Below are positions 472 to 23,127 of a stretch of 23,127 bases of DNA, piece after piece. Each line of letters begins with the position of its first letter. Position 1 is the first letter of the stretch. Position numbers and translations under genes: made by a program. Source of the DNA: a virus. Where the stretch lies: IMG/VR virus record IMGVR_UViG_3300037882_002427, positions 1 to 23,127 of that record. One strand, 5' to 3'. The notes beneath the pieces were generated by a model. It searched no databases and had not been told where the DNA came from. It saw only the letters and a program-made list of their open reading frames with translations.

Positions 472-1463
472 ACACGTTGATCGCACTGGGAGACGCCATC
501 AAGGCCACGCCGACGGGGCTTGTCTCAGGCTACTTGGTGCGCTTTGGTGACGAGACCAACACCGACCTCACCGGGGACTTCTTCACCAAGGACACGGACT
601 TCGGCAGGCCTTTTGTCAAGGGCGTGCCTCAGCCGCTGAACCTCTACTACGCCCATGGGTTCGATCCCGTGATCGGCAAGAAGGCCGTGGGCACCGGCAC
701 GATCAAGATGGACGAGGTGGGTCTCTGGTTCGAGGCGCAGATCAACCAGAGCGACGCCTACCGCAAGAAGCTGGCAGAGATGGCCACCATGAAGAGCCAG
801 GTGGACAGTGCGCCCGTGCTGGGCTACTCCTCCGGGGCCGCGTCCCACCTAGTGGAGCGTGTCCCGATCAAGGACGCCACCGGCAACGTCAAGGCCAGCC
901 GCATCGCCTCGTGGCCACTGGGAGAGGGATCGCTGACCCCGCGCCCCTGCGAGTCTCAGAACACGGTGGAGGGCAAGTCGCTGCTCCTGACCGAGGAGGA
1001 GATGCGTGCCAGCCTCAACCAGTCCCGCAAGTCGCTCAAAGGCTACCTGTACACGGACGATGATGAGGCCGCAGCGAGCATGGCCATGGCGATCCTCACC
1101 CGTGCCCACGACCGCCTGTACTCCACCTTCTACGACGTGGTGCGCTACAACAACGCCCCACGGGAGCAGAGGCTTGCCGCGCTGGAAGAGGCGCTAGATG
1201 AGTTCGAGGACATCTGCCTGCGCTACGCCGGGGCCGTGCTCATGGGCACCGCGCAGGAGACTCCTGAGGAAGCAGGCGAAGGCATTGAGGCGATGAAGAC
1301 CGCACTCAAGGGACTGCCCACGACCAAGACAACCCCGGAGGCGGCACCACCCGTCGCCTCCCTTCTCGACATGCGCCGGGCGGAATCCCACGCGCTAGAC
1401 GGTTGGGCCATGCGCCAAATCGTCGAACTGGCCACACCCGTGGCACCATCAACCGCTCCTTAG
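468..1463 (+). CDS. Prohead protease, HK97-like, with long C-terminal extension
   Basis: 331 residues. Start ATG 468 overlaps the previous stop and follows GGAGGA. HK97-type prohead proteases mature the capsid by cutting the N-terminal delta domain of the major capsid protein and then themselves. Visible signatures are LYYAHGFDP (candidate catalytic His63), LGYSSGA (Ser121/Ser122, one being the likely nucleophile) and the W-x-L-x-E-x-SLTPRP segment near residues 149-160, which closes the family core. Residues after about 170 are a helical, charged, then Pro/Thr/Ala-rich extension outside the usual core. It could help scaffold assembly, since no separate scaffold gene is seen. The gene lies directly before the major capsid gene, as in most HK97-like phages. 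Confidence 0.8.
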   Translation: MNTLIALGDAIKATPTGLVSGYLVRFGDETNTDLTGDFFTKDTDFGRPFVKGVPQPLNLYYAHGFDPVIGKKAVGTGTIKMDEVGLWFEAQINQSDAYRKKLAEMATMKSQVDSAPVLGYSSGAASHLVERVPIKDATGNVKASRIASWPLGEGSLTPRPCESQNTVEGKSLLLTEEEMRASLNQSRKSLKGYLYTDDDEAAASMAMAILTRAHDRLYSTFYDVVRYNNAPREQRLAALEEALDEFEDICLRYAGAVLMGTAQETPEEAGEGIEAMKTALKGLPTTKTTPEAAPPVASLLDMRRAESHALDGWAMRQIVELATPVAPSTAP

Positions 1464-1486
1464 TAGGGGCACAGGTAAGGACAAAC

Positions 1487-2848
1487 ATGAACGAGCAAAT
1501 GAAAGCCCTACTCGCTGACTACGAGGCTAAGGGCAAGGAGCGCGACGCACTGCTGGGCAAGGGCGCGGGCTTCACGGCGGAGGATGACGCCAAGGTCAAG
1601 AGCATCAACGAGAGCCTTGTGCTTATGAAGTCGCGGTTCGAGGGCATGAAGGCGGCGGCAGACGACGACTTCCTCAAGAGCACTGCCCCCAAGCTGGAGC
1701 TACCTACCAGCACCTCTGAGGTCAAGGGCATTCTGGGCTGGACTCCTGAGGCCACCAAGGACAGCGAGATCGTCGGGCCTGCGCTCAACTACTACGACGT
1801 CAAGAGCGCCGTGCTGGCGGAGTTTGGCGAAGACCGCGCGAATGTCTTGGTCAGCAAGAACTACAAGGCAGCGTTCTTCAAGATGGTCATTGGCGGCTTT
1901 GCAAGCCTCGGAGCCACCGAGCGCAAGGACTTGGAGGCGGGGCTTGATCCTCAGGGCGGCTACACCGTCCCCGTGGATCTGATCAATCGCCTCGTGCAGC
2001 GCAAGGCCACCCCGACCCGCCTCGCTGGTCTGGTAATGGGCATTGGCACGGGTAGCAATGCGGTGGAGATGCCTCTGGTCAGTGGCGGGGACAGCACCTA
2101 CCCCACCGGCATCCGCACCTCATGGGTGGGCGAGAAGCCTGCGAGCAAGGCGGATCACCGCGTCAACGATACCGACATGTTCGGCAAGAAGCGCATTGAC
2201 ATCCACCAGCTCATGCTCTCCATCCCGCTCACACAGAGCCTGATCGAGGACAGCAGCTTCGACCTTGAGGGTTGGGTGGCAGCACGCTTCTCCGAGGCCA
2301 ACGACTTGGAGACCGACCGGGTGATCCTGGCAGGGTCGGGCACCAACCAGCCCCACGGGATCATCACCCGTGCCCGTGCCGCCTACACGGGGCTCACGGT
2401 GGTCAACACCGGGGCAGGTGCCGCGCTCACCTACGACGGGCTCGTGGAACTCTCCGAGGGACTGCCCGAGCAGTACGACGAGAACGCTCGCTGGACATAC
2501 GCCAAGACCACCACGGGTGTGGCGCTGCGCAAGCTCAAGGACGACAACGGGGAGCCGCTGTTTGTCTACGGCTACGGCGACAAGGGCGCAGCAGGCGGAC
2601 GACCCCGTCAGCTCCTCGGCTACGACTACGCATGGTCGGGCTTCCATGAGAGCGTCGCGGCCAACAACTATCCGATCATCTTCGGAGACATGTCGGGCTA
2701 CACCCTCGCCCGCCGCATCGGGTTCAGCGTACAGGTGCTTCGTGAGCGCTATGCCGAGGAGGGACTCATCGTCCTACTCGGACGCAGCCGCTTCGGCGGC
2801 GACGTCGTCGAGCCCTGGAAGATGCGCGTGCAGAAGGTCAGCGCCTAA
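1487..2848 (+). CDS. Major capsid protein, HK97 gp5 fold
   Basis: 453 residues from ATG 1487, preceded by GTAAGGACAA (AAGGA ribosome site). An in-frame ATG at 1403 lies inside the protease gene, has no ribosome site, and is rejected. The first roughly 110 residues (MNEQMKALLADYEAKGKERD and on) are charged and helical, as expected for the scaffolding delta domain removed by the protease. From about residue 150, LDPQGGYTVPVDL and then PTRLAGLVMGIGTGSNAVEMP are typical of the HK97-fold capsid family, as is the C-terminal VLRERYAEEGLIVLLGRSRFGGDVV. The protein forms the icosahedral shell. It is followed by a hairpin (2891-2923) that may separate its expression from downstream genes. Confidence 0.9.
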   Translation: MNEQMKALLADYEAKGKERDALLGKGAGFTAEDDAKVKSINESLVLMKSRFEGMKAAADDDFLKSTAPKLELPTSTSEVKGILGWTPEATKDSEIVGPALNYYDVKSAVLAEFGEDRANVLVSKNYKAAFFKMVIGGFASLGATERKDLEAGLDPQGGYTVPVDLINRLVQRKATPTRLAGLVMGIGTGSNAVEMPLVSGGDSTYPTGIRTSWVGEKPASKADHRVNDTDMFGKKRIDIHQLMLSIPLTQSLIEDSSFDLEGWVAARFSEANDLETDRVILAGSGTNQPHGIITRARAAYTGLTVVNTGAGAALTYDGLVELSEGLPEQYDENARWTYAKTTTGVALRKLKDDNGEPLFVYGYGDKGAAGGRPRQLLGYDYAWSGFHESVAANNYPIIFGDMSGYTLARRIGFSVQVLRERYAEEGLIVLLGRSRFGGDVVEPWKMRVQKVSA

Positions 2849-7964: not shown

Positions 7965-8266
7965 ACTGGCTAAAAGACCTCATCAACAAAACCTACCTTG
8001 CTCGTGCAAAGGCTCCTCTTTTGCGGGAGATTGACCGTGCCGTGGCTAAGCTCCGAAGTGGCGAGACCGCCGCCACCGTTGTGCCTGCGCTAGAGCTAGG
8101 CTTTAGCCGTGCGCTCGCAGGATGGCTTCCCAGTGCAGTAGCGATGCTTCTCCTGCCTCTTGTGCTGGGCAATGTGGACTGGCTTGGTCTAGTGACCATG
8201 ACGACGAACGAGCTGGCCAGCTTCTTATCGGGCCTGCGCACCAAAGTGGAGGGAGCCCGGCTATGA
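7961..8266 (+). CDS. Small membrane protein, lysis cassette
   Basis: 101 residues from ATG 7961, which overlaps the previous stop (ATGA) and follows CAGGAGAAA. An upstream in-frame ATG at 7643 lies within other genes and is rejected. The first 45 residues are basic and amphipathic (MNWLKDLINKTYLARAKAPLL), then a hydrophobic region about 52-78 (LAGWLPSAVAMLLLPLVLGN) forms one, possibly two, membrane helices. Its stop overlaps the endolysin start. The function is unknown; position suggests lysis control. Confidence 0.6.
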   Translation: MNWLKDLINKTYLARAKAPLLREIDRAVAKLRSGETAATVVPALELGFSRALAGWLPSAVAMLLLPLVLGNVDWLGLVTMTTNELASFLSGLRTKVEGARL

Positions 8267-9162
8267 GCAAGACGGACTCATCACTGATCCCTGCCGCGTG
8301 GACACCGCCCAGCTCCATGAAGCGCATCATCGCGCACTGGAGTGAAGGGCGGCACAAGGCCAACGACACCGACCGTGAGCACTACCACGTGCTGGTGGAG
8401 GGTGGCAAGACGCCCCGGCTGGTGCGCGGTGAGCACAGCATCGCGGACAATGCCAGCACGGGCGACGGAGTCTACGCCGCCCACACGCGGGGCTGTAACA
8501 CGGGCTCCATCGGCATCGCCTTGTGCGGCATGATGGGCTGCGAGGAGTTTCCCTTCGAGGCGGGGCCAGAGCCTATCACCGAGGCGCAGTGGCATCTCAT
8601 GGTAGACGCCATCGCGGTGCTCTGCCAGCGCTACGGCATCCCTGTCACGCCCCAGACCGTGCTCTGTCACGGGGAAGTGCAGGCGAACCTGGGCATCAAG
8701 CAGCGGGGCAAGTGGGATCCGATGCGCTGGCCTTGGGCTTCTGAAGTGCCCGGTCACCGCATCGGCGATCTGCTCCGCGCGGCGGTGCGTGATGCGCTCA
8801 TGGGCGGCGGAGTGCCGGACACCAAGGTGCACAGCGCCCCTGTCTCTCGCACCGTGCACCTGCCCGGTGGCAAGAGCCTGGCCACCGGGCAGGTGCATGT
8901 CGAGGACGGTGAGACCTTTGTGGCACTGCGTCCCCTCTGTGAGTTGCTGGGCTGGACGATCAGCGGCGTGCGCAAGAGCCGGGCTGACCTGGTCCTCCCT
9001 CTTCAGGATGGTCTGACCGCAATGCCGTTGCTCGTGGAGGGCGGCACGGGCTTTGTGTCGGTCCGCGATGTCGCTAAGGTGCTGGGCGCATCGGTGGCGT
9101 GGGACAGCAAGACAAAGAGCGTGACGATTTCCCTGCCAGCGACGACCAAGACGGAGAACTAA
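8263..9162 (+). CDS. Endolysin: N-acetylmuramoyl-L-alanine amidase with copper-amine-oxidase-N-like C-terminal domain
   Basis: 299 residues from ATG 8263 (ATGA overlap, GGAGGGA upstream). In-frame ATG 8122 is inside the previous gene. Residues about 20-170 form an amidase_2/PGRP-type zinc amidase that cuts the bond between MurNAc and L-Ala. Candidate zinc ligands are His25 (IAHWSEG), His136 (LCHGEV) and Asp152 (KWDP); YHVLVEGG and GCNTGSIGIALCG are typical core strands. Residues about 205-299 (VEDGETFVALRPLCELLGW, FVSVRDVAKVLGASVAWD, KSVTI) resemble the copper amine oxidase N-terminal domain repeat (PF07833 type), probably a cell-wall targeting module. No signal peptide is seen, so export needs the holin. 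A perfect inverted repeat lies in the linker (8855-8897). Confidence 0.85.
   Translation: MSKTDSSLIPAAWTPPSSMKRIIAHWSEGRHKANDTDREHYHVLVEGGKTPRLVRGEHSIADNASTGDGVYAAHTRGCNTGSIGIALCGMMGCEEFPFEAGPEPITEAQWHLMVDAIAVLCQRYGIPVTPQTVLCHGEVQANLGIKQRGKWDPMRWPWASEVPGHRIGDLLRAAVRDALMGGGVPDTKVHSAPVSRTVHLPGGKSLATGQVHVEDGETFVALRPLCELLGWTISGVRKSRADLVLPLQDGLTAMPLLVEGGTGFVSVRDVAKVLGASVAWDSKTKSVTISLPATTKTEN
8855..8897 (+). repeat. Perfect 17-bp inverted repeat in the endolysin linker
   Basis: TGCACCTGCCCGGTGGC (8855-8871) is the exact reverse complement of GCCACCGGGCAGGTGCA (8881-8897), with a 9-base spacer. It encodes VHLPGGKSLATGQVH at the junction between the catalytic and C-terminal domains. Such a stem would be very stable in RNA or as a DNA cruciform. 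Confidence 0.85.
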
Positions 9163-18508: not shown

Positions 18509-18925
18509 CTACTGATGGTAGAGCTGTTCCCGGTGACCGTCGGCAAAGAGCCTCCAGACTCCGACCACGGCCCGGCGCTTGGTGTGGACATAGACCAAGT
18601 AATGCACCAGCGCCCGCGTGGTGACTTCCTTTCGGGTGCCTTCTGCCCAGTCCGGCGCTTCTTCGATGGCCTTGACCGTGCCATACTCGGGGTGCTTCTC
18701 AAAGAACTGTGTCACGATTTCAGAAGAAGACTCCGGGGCAGTGCGTGGCTTGGTCTTACTTGCTGCACGTGGGACAGGCTTAGGGCTGGGCTTGGGCTCT
18801 AGTGCAGGCTTATTAGGCAGCAGCCATCCCAGAATAAAGAGGAAGAACAGCCCGCCGCATCCGATCGCACCGCACGTCAAGAAGGGCTTTGACCGTCGTG
18901 AGGGAGGAGTAATGTTAGTGGTCAT
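18509..18925 (-). CDS. Small single-pass membrane protein of unknown function
   Basis: 138 residues, convergent with the hub gene and only 14 bases from it. The start ATG at 18925 has a poor ribosome site (CCGGGG). A short basic N-terminus (MTTNITPPSRRSKPFLTC) leads into one membrane helix, about 20-37 (AIGCGGLFFLFILGWLL), then a Pro/Lys-rich spacer (PNKPALEPKPSPKPVPR), and a folded domain of about 70 residues (EIVTQFFEKHPEYGTVKAIE, LVHYLVYVHTKRRAVVGVWR). Topology suggests a domain held outside the membrane. It may be a lysogen-expressed accessory gene, for example in superinfection exclusion, but that is only inferred from its place. Its start lies in a hairpin (18925-18954). Confidence 0.6.
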   Translation of the reverse strand: MTTNITPPSRRSKPFLTCGAIGCGGLFFLFILGWLLPNKPALEPKPSPKPVPRAASKTKPRTAPESSSEIVTQFFEKHPEYGTVKAIEEAPDWAEGTRKEVTTRALVHYLVYVHTKRRAVVGVWRLFADGHREQLYHQ

Positions 18926-18960: not shown

Positions 18961-19172
18961 AATGTCACCCCCACGTGTGTGGGGAAAGCCCTCCCTCAGA
19001 TCCGGCAGGCTATGAAGGCGGCGGTTCACCCCCACGTGTGTGGGGAAAGCTCAGAGCCTTAAATGGAACCTTGAATTTCATGCGGTTCACCCCCACGTGT
19101 GTGGGGAAAGCTCCGCGAGCTGGTTGATCTCCTCCGCGCTCACCGGTTCACCCCCACGTGTGTGGGGAAAGC
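18961..19172 (-). CRISPR. Cas-less mini-CRISPR array, type I-E-like repeat, 3 spacers
   Basis: Four 29-nt repeats lie at 18961-18989, 19022-19050, 19083-19111 and 19144-19172, separated by three 32-nt spacers (18990-19021, 19051-19082, 19112-19143). The last three repeats are identical; the first differs in its first four bases (AATG for CGGT). Each contains CCCCAC and GTGGGG arms. Read on the minus strand, the repeat ends in GTGAACCG and forms a 6-bp stem with an ACAC loop, as in type I-E repeats. The degenerate repeat is then the leader-distal end, giving leftward transcription. Only 28 bases separate the array from the stop of the upstream gene, with no AT-rich leader and no cas genes in the window. 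Processing would need Cas proteins from the host. Confidence 0.93.
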
Positions 19173-19200
19173 CCTAGTGCTCGTCCAGGAGGTCCTCAGG

Positions 19201-19476
19201 CTAGTGCTCCGCCAACCACGTGCAGCCTGCCTTGCACCCGTCCAGCATCGGGCGGTAGTCCACGGTGCGCACCACCAGTCCGCGCACCGTCCACTCACCG
19301 AGCGTGCGGAAGTGATCCTCTTTGTACGTGTCGCCTCGCTTCTCCTTGGGCAGGATCAGCGTGGCGGCTACCACCTGCTGGCACTGGGGGCAGAGTCCCA
19401 CCCAGGCAACGTCCGGCCCGACAGCAAGCTCTAGCGGGAGTGCTTGCTGCGTGGTCGCTATCTGCGTCTCTGTCAT
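19201..19476 (-). CDS. Small zinc-ribbon-like protein, unknown function
   Basis: 91 residues; ATG 19476 overlaps the upstream stop (ATGA) and follows AAGGGAAAG. Four Cys in two pairs (Cys29/Cys32 in GLCPQCQ, Cys81/Cys85 in GCKAGCTWLAEH) suggest a zinc ribbon. Its last residues CxxxCTWLAEH resemble the zinc-binding end of the first gene of this operon (CxxxxCSWIGEH). It is the last gene before the CRISPR array, whose first repeat begins 28 bases after its stop. In-frame reading past the stop meets a second TAG after PEDLLDEH, with the last nine bases duplicated. Confidence 0.7.
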   Translation of the reverse strand: MTETQIATTQQALPLELAVGPDVAWVGLCPQCQQVVAATLILPKEKRGDTYKEDHFRTLGEWTVRGLVVRTVDYRPMLDGCKAGCTWLAEH

Positions 19477-19727
19477 GATTTCTTTCCCTTCAGCTTGAGC
19501 GCCTTCTGCCGTCTGGCTTCCAGTGCGTGCAGGGAGATGATCTCTCCTGCATCGGGGACCTCGGTAATCCCCTGGGCATTCAGCGCACGCACCAGCGCCT
19601 CGTAGCGCTCCAGGGTATCGAGGGCAACGGCGGCGACGGCTTCGATATCGGACTGCACCATGGCGGCAAGGACACCCCGGTGCATGGGGTTGCGCTCGGT
19701 GAGGAGCATAGAGAGTTGTGCGTTCAC
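19473..19727 (-). CDS. Small helical protein, unknown function (GTG start)
   Basis: 84 residues. Start GTG at 19727 overlaps the upstream stop (GTGA) and is preceded by GGGGAGGAAG. The protein is helical (DIEAVAAVALDTLERYEALVRALNAQG) with a basic end (RRQKALKLKGKKS). No recognised motif. It is translationally coupled to both neighbours, so it belongs to the leftward accessory operon. Confidence 0.65.
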   Translation of the reverse strand: MNAQLSMLLTERNPMHRGVLAAMVQSDIEAVAAVALDTLERYEALVRALNAQGITEVPDAGEIISLHALEARRQKALKLKGKKS

Positions 19728-20131
19728 GGCTTCCTCCCCAACTCTCTGGCCTTCATGATCGCCAGTGTCCAGCGCTCTGGGGTCATGGTGGGCCGGTCAG
19801 AGCGCACGCCACAGAGCAGCTCGTTGGCAAAGCGAGCAACCTCACGCTCGTCGTAGTGCCGCCTGCCCGCACCATCCACCGTGAAGTCCGTGAGTGCCGG
19901 GTCGGTCTGGCCGTGGTGGCGAGCTTGGGCGATGAAGGCGTGCATGTTGTGGTTGACCCCGACACGTTTGGTCGTGGACTCAGGCTCAGGTGTCTCGGCA
20001 GGAAACACCAGATCCTCACGCAGGGCACGGGAGCGCTCGGTGGCCTCCCGGATCCGCAATGCCTCTGCCTCCGAGACTGCCCGGTCTTGCAGCACCTCCG
20101 ACTCACTGAAGAGGTCAAGGGTCAGGTTCAT
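19724..20131 (-). CDS. Unknown protein of the leftward operon
   Basis: 135 residues; ATG 20131 overlaps the upstream stop as ATGA. The N-terminal third is acidic and helical (MNLTLDLFSESEVLQDRAVS), a Pro/Glu/Thr linker follows (PAETPEPESTTKR), then a globular part with HNMHAFIAQARHHGQTDPAL, GAGRRHYDEREVARFANELL and TPERWTLAIMKARELGRKP. I do not recognise a family. The Arg/His-rich region might contact nucleic acid, but no helix-turn-helix is evident. A long ORF on the opposite strand here looks like a shadow. Confidence 0.65.
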   Translation of the reverse strand: MNLTLDLFSESEVLQDRAVSEAEALRIREATERSRALREDLVFPAETPEPESTTKRVGVNHNMHAFIAQARHHGQTDPALTDFTVDGAGRRHYDEREVARFANELLCGVRSDRPTMTPERWTLAIMKARELGRKP

Positions 20132-20409
20132 CCGGCCCTCTGCAATATCTCTTCCGCTGTCCAGTCCCTACTGGATATCCCCATTGCTTCATTGGCGGCT
20201 CGTGCCTGCGCCTCTCGCTCGGCTTGGTGCTCCCCTATCCAGGAGCAGGCCCGGGTACCGCACACGCGGGTGAGCTTGCCGCCGCGCATTGCATCACGGG
20301 TGCTGGCTCCGCACTCAGGGCAAAGGTCTGGCTCCTTGCCCATAGAAGCACGGTTAGTGAGAATGGTGTGGTGCAGCAGCTCTGCACGGGTAAAGCCTCG
20401 GTTCGTCAT
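20128..20409 (-). CDS. Small zinc-ribbon protein, unknown function
   Basis: 93 residues; ATG 20409 with CGGAGGG upstream. A zinc ribbon is likely from Cys30/Cys33 (DLCPECGAS) and Cys50/Cys55 (RVCGTRACSWIGEH). An amphipathic C-terminal helix follows (HQAEREAQARAANEAMGI). It is the first well-supported gene after the leftward promoter at 20589-20616, and its stop overlaps the next start. Such proteins in phages are often DNA-binding or adaptor proteins; no specific role can be read. Confidence 0.65.
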   Translation of the reverse strand: MTNRGFTRAELLHHTILTNRASMGKEPDLCPECGASTRDAMRGGKLTRVCGTRACSWIGEHQAEREAQARAANEAMGISSRDWTAEEILQRAG

Positions 20410-20588: not shown

Positions 20589-20616
20589 ATTATACAACTA
20601 AAAGTTGTAATTTCAA
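20589..20616 (-). promoter_or_regulatory. Leftward sigma70-type promoter
   Basis: On the minus strand, TTGAAA (20616-20611) and TATAAT (20594-20589) are separated by 16 bases. The -10 is a perfect consensus in a local AT-rich patch within GC-rich DNA. Transcription would start near 20582 and read the zinc-ribbon operon and the CRISPR array. Confidence 0.7.
20593..20609. promoter_or_regulatory. Operator-like perfect palindrome between divergent promoters
   Basis: TACAACT-AAA-AGTTGTA is a perfect 7-bp inverted repeat with 3-base spacer. It fills the -10/-35 spacer of the leftward promoter and covers the -35 of the rightward one, so a bound repressor would block both. The regulator is not in the window. 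Confidence 0.6.
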
Positions 20617-22115: not shown

Positions 22116-23127
22116 CTAAGCCAGCAGCTTCTTCTGTAGCTCCGGGAGGTTCCACTCGGTGACCATCTGCTGTATTAGATTGATCTGCCCTTCGGGCTGG
22201 GTATCTCTACTACAGTTAGACGGTGAGAACCGGAACCGGATCACGATATCCGCCTGTGCCTGGGTCGTCGTCACCGTGATCCGCTCTACCAGCGCTTCGA
22301 TGATCGTGCGCCGATCGGCCCGGCTTGGTGTCTCACCAAGCCTCTGGGAGAGCACTAGGAGCGCCTCGGTAGACTCCCGAATCTGCCTGCTGATTTCCGT
22401 TGCCATCTGCTCTTGCTGGCTGATGCGCACGAGCTCGCTCCGAAGGAGCGCCTCTTCCTGCCCGATCTCCTCCAGCATCGTCTCCGCTGTGTCGTCGTTG
22501 TAGAGCCCCCGCCGGTGCGCCCGTGCCACACGTGCCCGCTCCTCCTGCTTGCTGGCCAGCCCCGCCTGGAGCCTATCGCGTTGCGCTTGACTACTCTCTC
22601 CCTGCGCCCCGTTGCCCGAAGGCACGGGCGCACTCTCCAGCATCGCCTTTACTTCCTCGGGGCGCTCCAGCCAATAGCGGCACGCCTCCCAGATCGTGGT
22701 CTCCAGCGAGCCTGGCACGCTCTTAGAGACCGTGCACGTGCGGCCTTTGTAGGTCTTGGCGTTGCAGCGATACAGCACGCCGCGCTGGTGGTCGGTGGCA
22801 TCGGCCACGTCTTTGTAGCCGGGGAGGGTGAGCCCGGTGTAGGCGCTCCCACAGTGCCCGCAGAAGATCAGCCCACGGAGCAGGTAGTCCCGAGCCTCGG
22901 CAGTGCGTGAGAGACGCCGGTTACGCGTGAGCGCTTCATTGGCCGCTTGCCACACGTCGGGCGGCACCAGAGCCGGGGCCGGAGTGCTCAGTCCCGCCAG
23001 GTCGCTGGTGGCTCCGATCTCATCGCCGTAGACATGGGTGCCCTTGTAGACGGGGTTGTGCACCATGCGGGTGATGACCGCACCCGACCACGCCCCACCC
23101 CGCGCACTGGGCACTCCCTGGGCAGTG
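22116..23127 (-). CDS. Large serine recombinase (phage integrase), C-terminal part, truncated by window end
   Basis: 336 residues are visible and the frame stays open to the window edge, so the catalytic Ser domain is outside. The visible start (TAQGVPSARGGAWSGAVITR, MVHNPVYKGTHVYG) is the end of the recombinase domain that contacts att DNA. A zinc ribbon follows (LIFCGHCGSAYTG, then YRCNAKTYKGRTC; four Cys). Then comes a charged coiled-coil region (RDRLQAGLASKQEERARVAR, ISQQEQMATEISRQIRESTE) like the synapsis motif of phiC31-type integrases, and an end rich in basic/beta sequence (ALVERITVTTTQAQADIVIR). It would integrate and excise the phage, which implies a temperate lifestyle. attP is not identified; it could lie beyond the window. 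Confidence 0.9.
   Translation of the reverse strand, partial: TAQGVPSARGGAWSGAVITRMVHNPVYKGTHVYGDEIGATSDLAGLSTPAPALVPPDVWQAANEALTRNRRLSRTAEARDYLLRGLIFCGHCGSAYTGLTLPGYKDVADATDHQRGVLYRCNAKTYKGRTCTVSKSVPGSLETTIWEACRYWLERPEEVKAMLESAPVPSGNGAQGESSQAQRDRLQAGLASKQEERARVARAHRRGLYNDDTAETMLEEIGQEEALLRSELVRISQQEQMATEISRQIRESTEALLVLSQRLGETPSRADRRTIIEALVERITVTTTQAQADIVIRFRFSPSNCSRDTQPEGQINLIQQMVTEWNLPELQKKLLA

Follow-up and report, generated by a model that had tools for sequence, protein, structure and literature searches.

A cas-less, leaderless mini-CRISPR array of type I-E character in a phage, with two spacers that probably match the tape-measure gene of other phages

Genomic setting and anatomy of the array

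The window, by which we mean the whole stretch of DNA analyzed here, corresponds to a 23,127-base virus record with a GC content of 63%. It encodes a capsid protein of the HK97 type, a tail module, an endolysin and a large serine recombinase that is truncated by the contig end (Table 1). The recombinase suggests that the phage is temperate. No terminase or portal gene was recognized in the window which, together with the truncated recombinase, indicates that the phage genome is incomplete. Two domains, Amidase_2 and a copper amine oxidase N-terminal domain, are combined in the endolysin ORF (positions 8122–9162).

Four 29-nt repeats and three spacers (S1, S2 and S3), each exactly 32 nt long, occupy positions 18961–19172 with an in-register spacing of 61 nt, which confirms, with exact coordinates, the repeats and spacers that a preliminary description had reported in this phage DNA. 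Read on the minus strand, three of the four repeats are identical, while the leader-distal copy agrees at 25 of 29 positions and ends in GTGACATT where the others have GTGAACCG, as is typical of terminal repeats. Three identical 29-mers at a fixed distance, with unrelated 32-mers between them, exclude a chance arrangement, and the array is real. The repeat is predicted to fold, as RNA, into a seven-pair hairpin with a CCCCAC/GTGGGG stem. As the hairpin is retained in the terminal repeat, processing of all three spacers would be possible. An Rfam search of the window gave no match.

Table 1. Coordinates of the array and of the phage genes and sites discussed in the text.
Feature	Position	Strand	Description
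Major capsid protein, HK97 type	1403–2848	+	Best relatives in Armatimonadota prophages
Tape-measure protein of the phage itself	12481–15531	+	PHROG tape-measure families; no TMP_3 match
Leftward ORF past the array	18509–18925	-	Start codon 35 nt beyond repeat 4; no function assigned
Repeat 4, leader-distal, terminal	18961–18989	-	Last five bases degenerate; hairpin intact
Spacer S3	18990–19021	-	CCGCCTTCATAGCCTGCCGGATCTGAGGGAGG; reverse complement reads LPQIRQAMKA; matches tape-measure motif, antisense
Repeat 3	19022–19050	-	Identical to repeat 1
Spacer S2	19051–19082	-	CATGAAATTCAAGGTTCCATTTAAGGCTCTGA; open as MKFKVPFKAL (sense) or RALNGTLNFM (antisense)
Repeat 2	19083–19111	-	Identical to repeat 1
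Spacer S1	19112–19143	-	GTGAGCGCGGAGGAGATCAACCAGCTCGCGGA; reads VSAEEINQLAE; matches TMP_3 tape-measure motif, sense strand
Repeat 1, leader-proximal	19144–19172	-	GCTTTCCCCACACACGTGGGGGTGAACCG; hairpin -11.7 kcal/mol
Gap, ORF 4 stop codon to first repeat	19173–19200	-	28 nt
Leftward small ORF 4	19201–19476	-	4-nt overlap with ORF 3; stop 28 nt before the array
Leftward small ORF 3	19473–19727	-	4-nt overlap with ORF 2; no function assigned
Leftward small ORF 2	19724–20131	-	4-nt overlap with ORF 1; no function assigned
Leftward small ORF 1	20128–20409	-	No function assigned
Promoter-like site TTGAAA-16-TATAAT (11/12)	20589–20616	-	Upstream of the leftward gene run with the array
Large serine recombinase (integrase)	22116–23114	-	Cut by contig end

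As described previously, the array lies between small leftward genes, and the flanking coding sequences are 28 and 35 nt away. The ORFs preceding it overlap by 4 nt each, and a promoter-like site is present upstream of the run (2 such sites were found in the scanned region, compared to 0.4 expected). No terminator-like site was detected in the region scanned around the array operon. The simplest reading of this arrangement is that the array forms part of a polycistronic transcript. A 14-nt near-duplicate (CTAGTGCTCGTCCA / CTAGTGCTCCGCCA, at 19174–19187 and 19201–19214) is located beside the leader-proximal end, with one copy spanning the stop codon of the upstream ORF, and is possibly a trace of the array's arrival.

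Since the contig is metagenomic, a bacterial array could have been fused to a phage contig during assembly. We regard such a chimera as highly improbable, as the array sits within one run of leftward small ORFs, at these short distances from coding sequences and with phage genes on both sides, and similar mini-arrays are found on other viral contigs (see below).

The preliminary description had noted no cas gene in the window, which is borne out by a search with the Cas6e profile (PF08798; no match in the window) and by PADLOC (no match among ten flanking ORFs). As the contig is incomplete, this result applies to the window rather than to the whole phage, although cas genes elsewhere in the phage genome are unlikely. 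A type I-E cas operon occupies about 8 kb. The missing terminase and portal genes and the recombinase cut at the contig end leave room for a full phage-encoded type I-E system, with its cas genes outside the sequenced contig. Such an operon would, however, normally adjoin an array with a leader, and phages of ordinary size seldom encode full CRISPR systems (PMC11656645); we therefore give this explanation very little weight.

Repeat kinship and CRISPR type

The exact repeat is absent from the collections of viral contigs and genome contigs that were searched. A degenerate pattern of the repeat is present in 47 genome stretches, many of which belong to Chloroflexi and to Chthonomonas (represented by genome G002), which we take to be a member of Armatimonadota. 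The nearest repeats, identical at 28 of 29 positions, are those of the Armatimonadota genome G673 (GCATTCCCC...), which is in the same phylum as the Chthonomonas genome G002, and of the Chloroflexi genome G001 (GTTTTCCCC...), which contains more than 100 copies. Cas6e was found in all six cellular genomes tested, including these two. The cas6e gene of G673 is located inside a Cascade-like gene run with Cas1- and Cas2-like ORFs at its end, directly before the array; the run and these ORFs were identified from their translations and not by profile.

The 29/32-nt geometry, the CCCCAC/GTGGGG hairpin, the 8-nt handle (GUGAACCG) and the 28/29 repeats in genomes with cas6e support the assignment of the phage array to type I-E. 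The type I-E character proposed earlier therefore holds, and host repeats of this type similar to the phage repeat, for which a comparison had been suggested, do exist. The type I-E loci of Armatimonadota (G673, G672 and G447) resemble the phage array in their repeats (27–28 of 29 positions identical) and 32-nt spacers, with Cas6e present in the hosts. In contrast, cas genes adjoin the host arrays, while none is found at the phage array. The G673 and G672 loci also have a recognizable leader, and the 28-nt stretch preceding the first phage repeat is, by eye, unlike either. By this comparison the phage array is leaderless, in the sense that it has no host-like leader. The cas operon of G672 itself contains a leaderless mini-array, which lies between its cas6e and cas1 ORFs. 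With two repeats, the second of them degenerate, this array might give a CreR-like regulatory crRNA.

Host of the carrier phage

Relatives of the capsid protein were identified among 291 Armatimonadota genomes with E-values down to 3.5e-81 and 38–39% identity, compared to a best E-value of 1.2e-41 in an equal-size sample of Chloroflexota and an identity of about 29% to sequenced phages. The 28/29 repeat of one Chloroflexi genome had made Chloroflexota a candidate host phylum, which ranks below Armatimonadota on this capsid comparison. As the closest capsid relatives are in Armatimonadota, an armatimonadote that has a type I-E system is the most likely host. Thus, judging from sequence relatedness, the phage probably infects Armatimonadota.

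Spacer targets

In blastn searches of phages and plasmids, as had been proposed, S1, S2 and S3 had chance-level matches only (E 4–5), and a combined query of S1 and S3 with three Ns between them gave E 2 or worse. A tblastn search of phages with the 22-residue S1-S3 peptide, a query too short for that search, gave no match, and strict S1 and strict S3 patterns were absent from the viral contigs. For S2, no target was found by blastn or by back-translation in two frames over the viral contigs. Homologous sites for S1 and S3 were nevertheless identified in tape-measure genes of the TMP_3 family.

The best non-self match of S1 among the compared loci is in a prophage of the Armatimonadota genome G487, a locus that had entered the comparison through its capsid gene. 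The site is inside a tape-measure gene (Pfam TMP_3, E 7.5e-19) and reads VSAEEINQIAE, compared to VSAEEINQLAE for S1. Within Armatimonadota the exact protein motif is confined to G487 among 291 genomes, and the S1 motif is found in at least 120 viral contigs among the matches listed. The antisense reading of S3 (LPQIRQAMKA) fits the residues that follow in the conserved TMP_3 motif (...VSAEEINQ[LI]AER[LV]PQIRxxMxxAFGT...). The S1 and S3 sites thus adjoin each other in this motif, 3 nt apart, in frame and on opposite strands.

As the contigs had been selected by S1, the S3 match provides an independent test. The translated score of S3 is 42 of 48, whereas 200 shuffled versions compared near the motif averaged 23 and never exceeded 31. 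Scores of 30 or more occur at 20 places in 2.2 million peptide positions, 19 of which are at the site adjoining S1. By nucleotide mismatches alone S3 matches weakly near the S1 motif (9 mismatches, equaled by 2 of 300 shuffles), so that it is the translated, in-register match that supports this target.

Individual sites differ in their distance from the spacers and in the adjoining bases. AAG is the canonical type I-E PAM. In the closest joint site (contig L125), which has 4 mismatches to S1 and 9 to S3, AAG adjoins both protospacers; another contig (L113) has 3 mismatches to S1. Over the homologous, inexact sites as a whole, AAG (30 of 87) or AAA (47 of 87) precedes S1, and CTT follows S3 in 14 of 87. 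No exact protospacer was found, the nearest sites differing at 3 of 32 positions for S1 and 9 of 32 for S3, which implies that the source phage of the spacers is absent from the data. Some of the contigs with TMP_3 share other genes with the carrier phage: the capsid gene in one (L173; 38%, E 2e-78) and a tail-completion gene in two (L205 and L210; about 60%). Thus, two of the three guides appear to match a TMP_3 tape-measure motif of other phages at homologous sites.

The tape-measure gene of the carrier falls into other PHROG families; it has neither a match to TMP_3 nor the S1/S3 motif. Elsewhere in the window, outside the array, every site has at least 10 of 32 mismatches to S1 and to S3. 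As the carrier's tape-measure gene is of another kind, S1 and S3 do not target the phage that carries them. Conversely, the spacers of I-E-like arrays in the compared loci match the window with 8 mismatches at best, which is chance level. The preliminary description had proposed a role in conflicts between viruses, and this idea gains from the match of two of the three spacers to the tape-measure motif of other phages and not of the carrier. It had also held that a lack of protospacers in any related phage would speak against it; such sites do occur, as homologous rather than exact sequences.

Proposed function

We consider it likely that the locus is a cas-less, leaderless type I-E mini-array that uses the type I-E proteins of the host to exclude competing phages, with a temperate siphophage of Armatimonadota or a close neighbor as the carrier that best explains the data. 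The array would be transcribed by read-through from the promoter of the leftward phage operon. Cleavage of the repeat hairpins by host Cas6e would then yield three 61-nt crRNAs, each composed of the 8-nt GUGAACCG handle, the 32-nt spacer and the hairpin, which could be loaded onto the Cascade of the host. At least two of these guides would steer Cascade-Cas3 to the tape-measure gene of TMP_3-type competitors. Incoming or co-infecting TMP_3 phages would be destroyed, keeping rivals out of lysogens or mixed infections, and the carrier would be spared through its different kind of tape-measure gene. Without a host-like leader, spacer uptake by normal adaptation is probably impossible, and the array probably originated by recombination with a host array, an origin that has been proposed for phage mini-arrays (PMC6858448, PMC7099407). 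Counting against this interpretation are the lack of an exact protospacer, the lack of a target for S2, the absence of the exact repeat from any genome searched, and the incomplete contig.

Some of the same observations could also be accommodated by a passive relic, in which a piece of a host array was caught by illegitimate recombination and is unexpressed or unused, with spacers that are old memories of the host. The missing leader, the degenerate terminal repeat, the lack of exact targets and the unexplained S2 are all compatible with such an origin. A relic is, however, at odds with the three identical repeats and their perfect spacing, with a promoter-like site upstream and no terminator-like site, and with the location of two of three spacers at one conserved motif that is absent from the carrier. 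On balance, we find it unlikely.

Solitary type I-E repeats, including RacrIE1 and RacrIE2, are known to function as RNA anti-CRISPRs (PMC10651486). An array acting in this way would produce crRNA-like decoys that occupy Cas6e and Cas7 and blunt host immunity, and its spacers would matter little. That working type I-E examples are known (PMC10651486) favors this possibility, as do the intact hairpin and the degenerate handle of the last repeat. Yet those are solitary repeat units, whereas four repeats, three complete 32-nt guides and intact handles are present here, and a match of two guides, in register, to one conserved phage gene would be needless for a decoy. A decoy function thus seems improbable to us.

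Within the preferred reading, exclusion of TMP_3 phages by host type I-E proteins, the target itself may have further consequences. Two guides at adjoining sites would make escape harder, and the conservation of the motif would widen the range of targets. A tentative extension, which we put forward as a possibility rather than an expectation, is a broad-range exclusion device with paired opposite-strand guides on the most widely conserved TMP_3 motif, by which many unrelated siphophages would be blocked. If so, single escape mutations would be insufficient, and the carrier would be immune through its other tape-measure family.

What is new here is that S1 and S3 have a recognizable, if predicted, target in the tape-measure gene family TMP_3. 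Concrete targets are rarely assigned to phage-borne mini-arrays, and in this array a single named gene family is indicated by two of the three guides. The conflict idea thereby becomes testable with type I-E Cas proteins, the array and a TMP_3 tape-measure fragment as the only components. In addition, a cas-less type I-E array is here connected with a probable phage of Armatimonadota, a group whose phages are little known, and the locus suggests the tape-measure motif as a point for broad phage-phage attack.

Comparison with other mini-arrays

Several other viral contigs carry arrays of a similar kind. A 44.7-kb contig (L053, 6526–6676) has three repeats that differ by one base from the repeat of the window and are separated by two spacers; an AT-rich palindrome immediately precedes the array. 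A 38.7-kb contig (L052, 5494–5768) has five I-E-like repeats and four spacers, near a tyrosine-recombinase-like ORF. No Cas6e match was found on either contig. Two further contigs (L051, 12024–12113; L054, 4974–5063) contain an I-E-like mini-array of two repeats and one spacer, in frame within an ORF for a phage Mu F-like head protein (PF04233). The sequence that immediately follows this array, DEGAPEDRLLDV, is similar to the spacer (DEGDPSRILDV), as would be seen if the array had inserted into the very site that it targets. The phage record MT835722.1, a GenBank 'Bacteriophage sp.' from human feces, was considered as a case of the same repeat and rejected, since its repeats are of another sequence (5 mismatches in the best copy). 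It contains at least nine I-E-like repeats in the 700 bases read, and this longer array could be either bacterial sequence or genuinely phage-borne.

Phages are known to carry cas-less mini-arrays whose repeats are of the host type and whose spacers are directed against related viruses, and these form an established class (PMC11656645, PMC6858448, PMC7099407). The array described here is best read as a member, by mechanism and context, of the leaderless and cas-less phage mini-arrays. As far as the mini-arrays of phages and prophages of Faure et al. (2019) are described in PMC6858448 and PMC7099407, they are alike in lacking cas genes and a host-like leader, in having repeats of the host type, and in their spacers, which target relatives of the carrier phage but spare the carrier itself. 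According to the same accounts they have one or two spacers, compared to three here, a difference of size convention and not of mechanism. Against these descriptions, the present array is distinguished by its position within an operon, by two spacers whose sites lie next to each other in a single, widely conserved tape-measure motif, by its occurrence in a phage of a little-studied phylum, and by a nearest host repeat that is not identical but matches at 28 of 29 positions.

The archaeal portogloboviruses SPV1 and SPV2 likewise carry cas-less arrays that target other viruses and avoid self-targeting (PMC6858448). In these viruses the arrays possess host-like leaders, and their spacers match protospacers in co-occurring viruses exactly (PMC6858448), whereas the phage array has no such leader and homologous sites only. 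Racr elements, including RacrIE1 and RacrIE2, share with it phage-borne type I-E repeats that are not accompanied by cas genes, but they are solitary repeats (PMC10651486), in contrast to an array with full-length guides.
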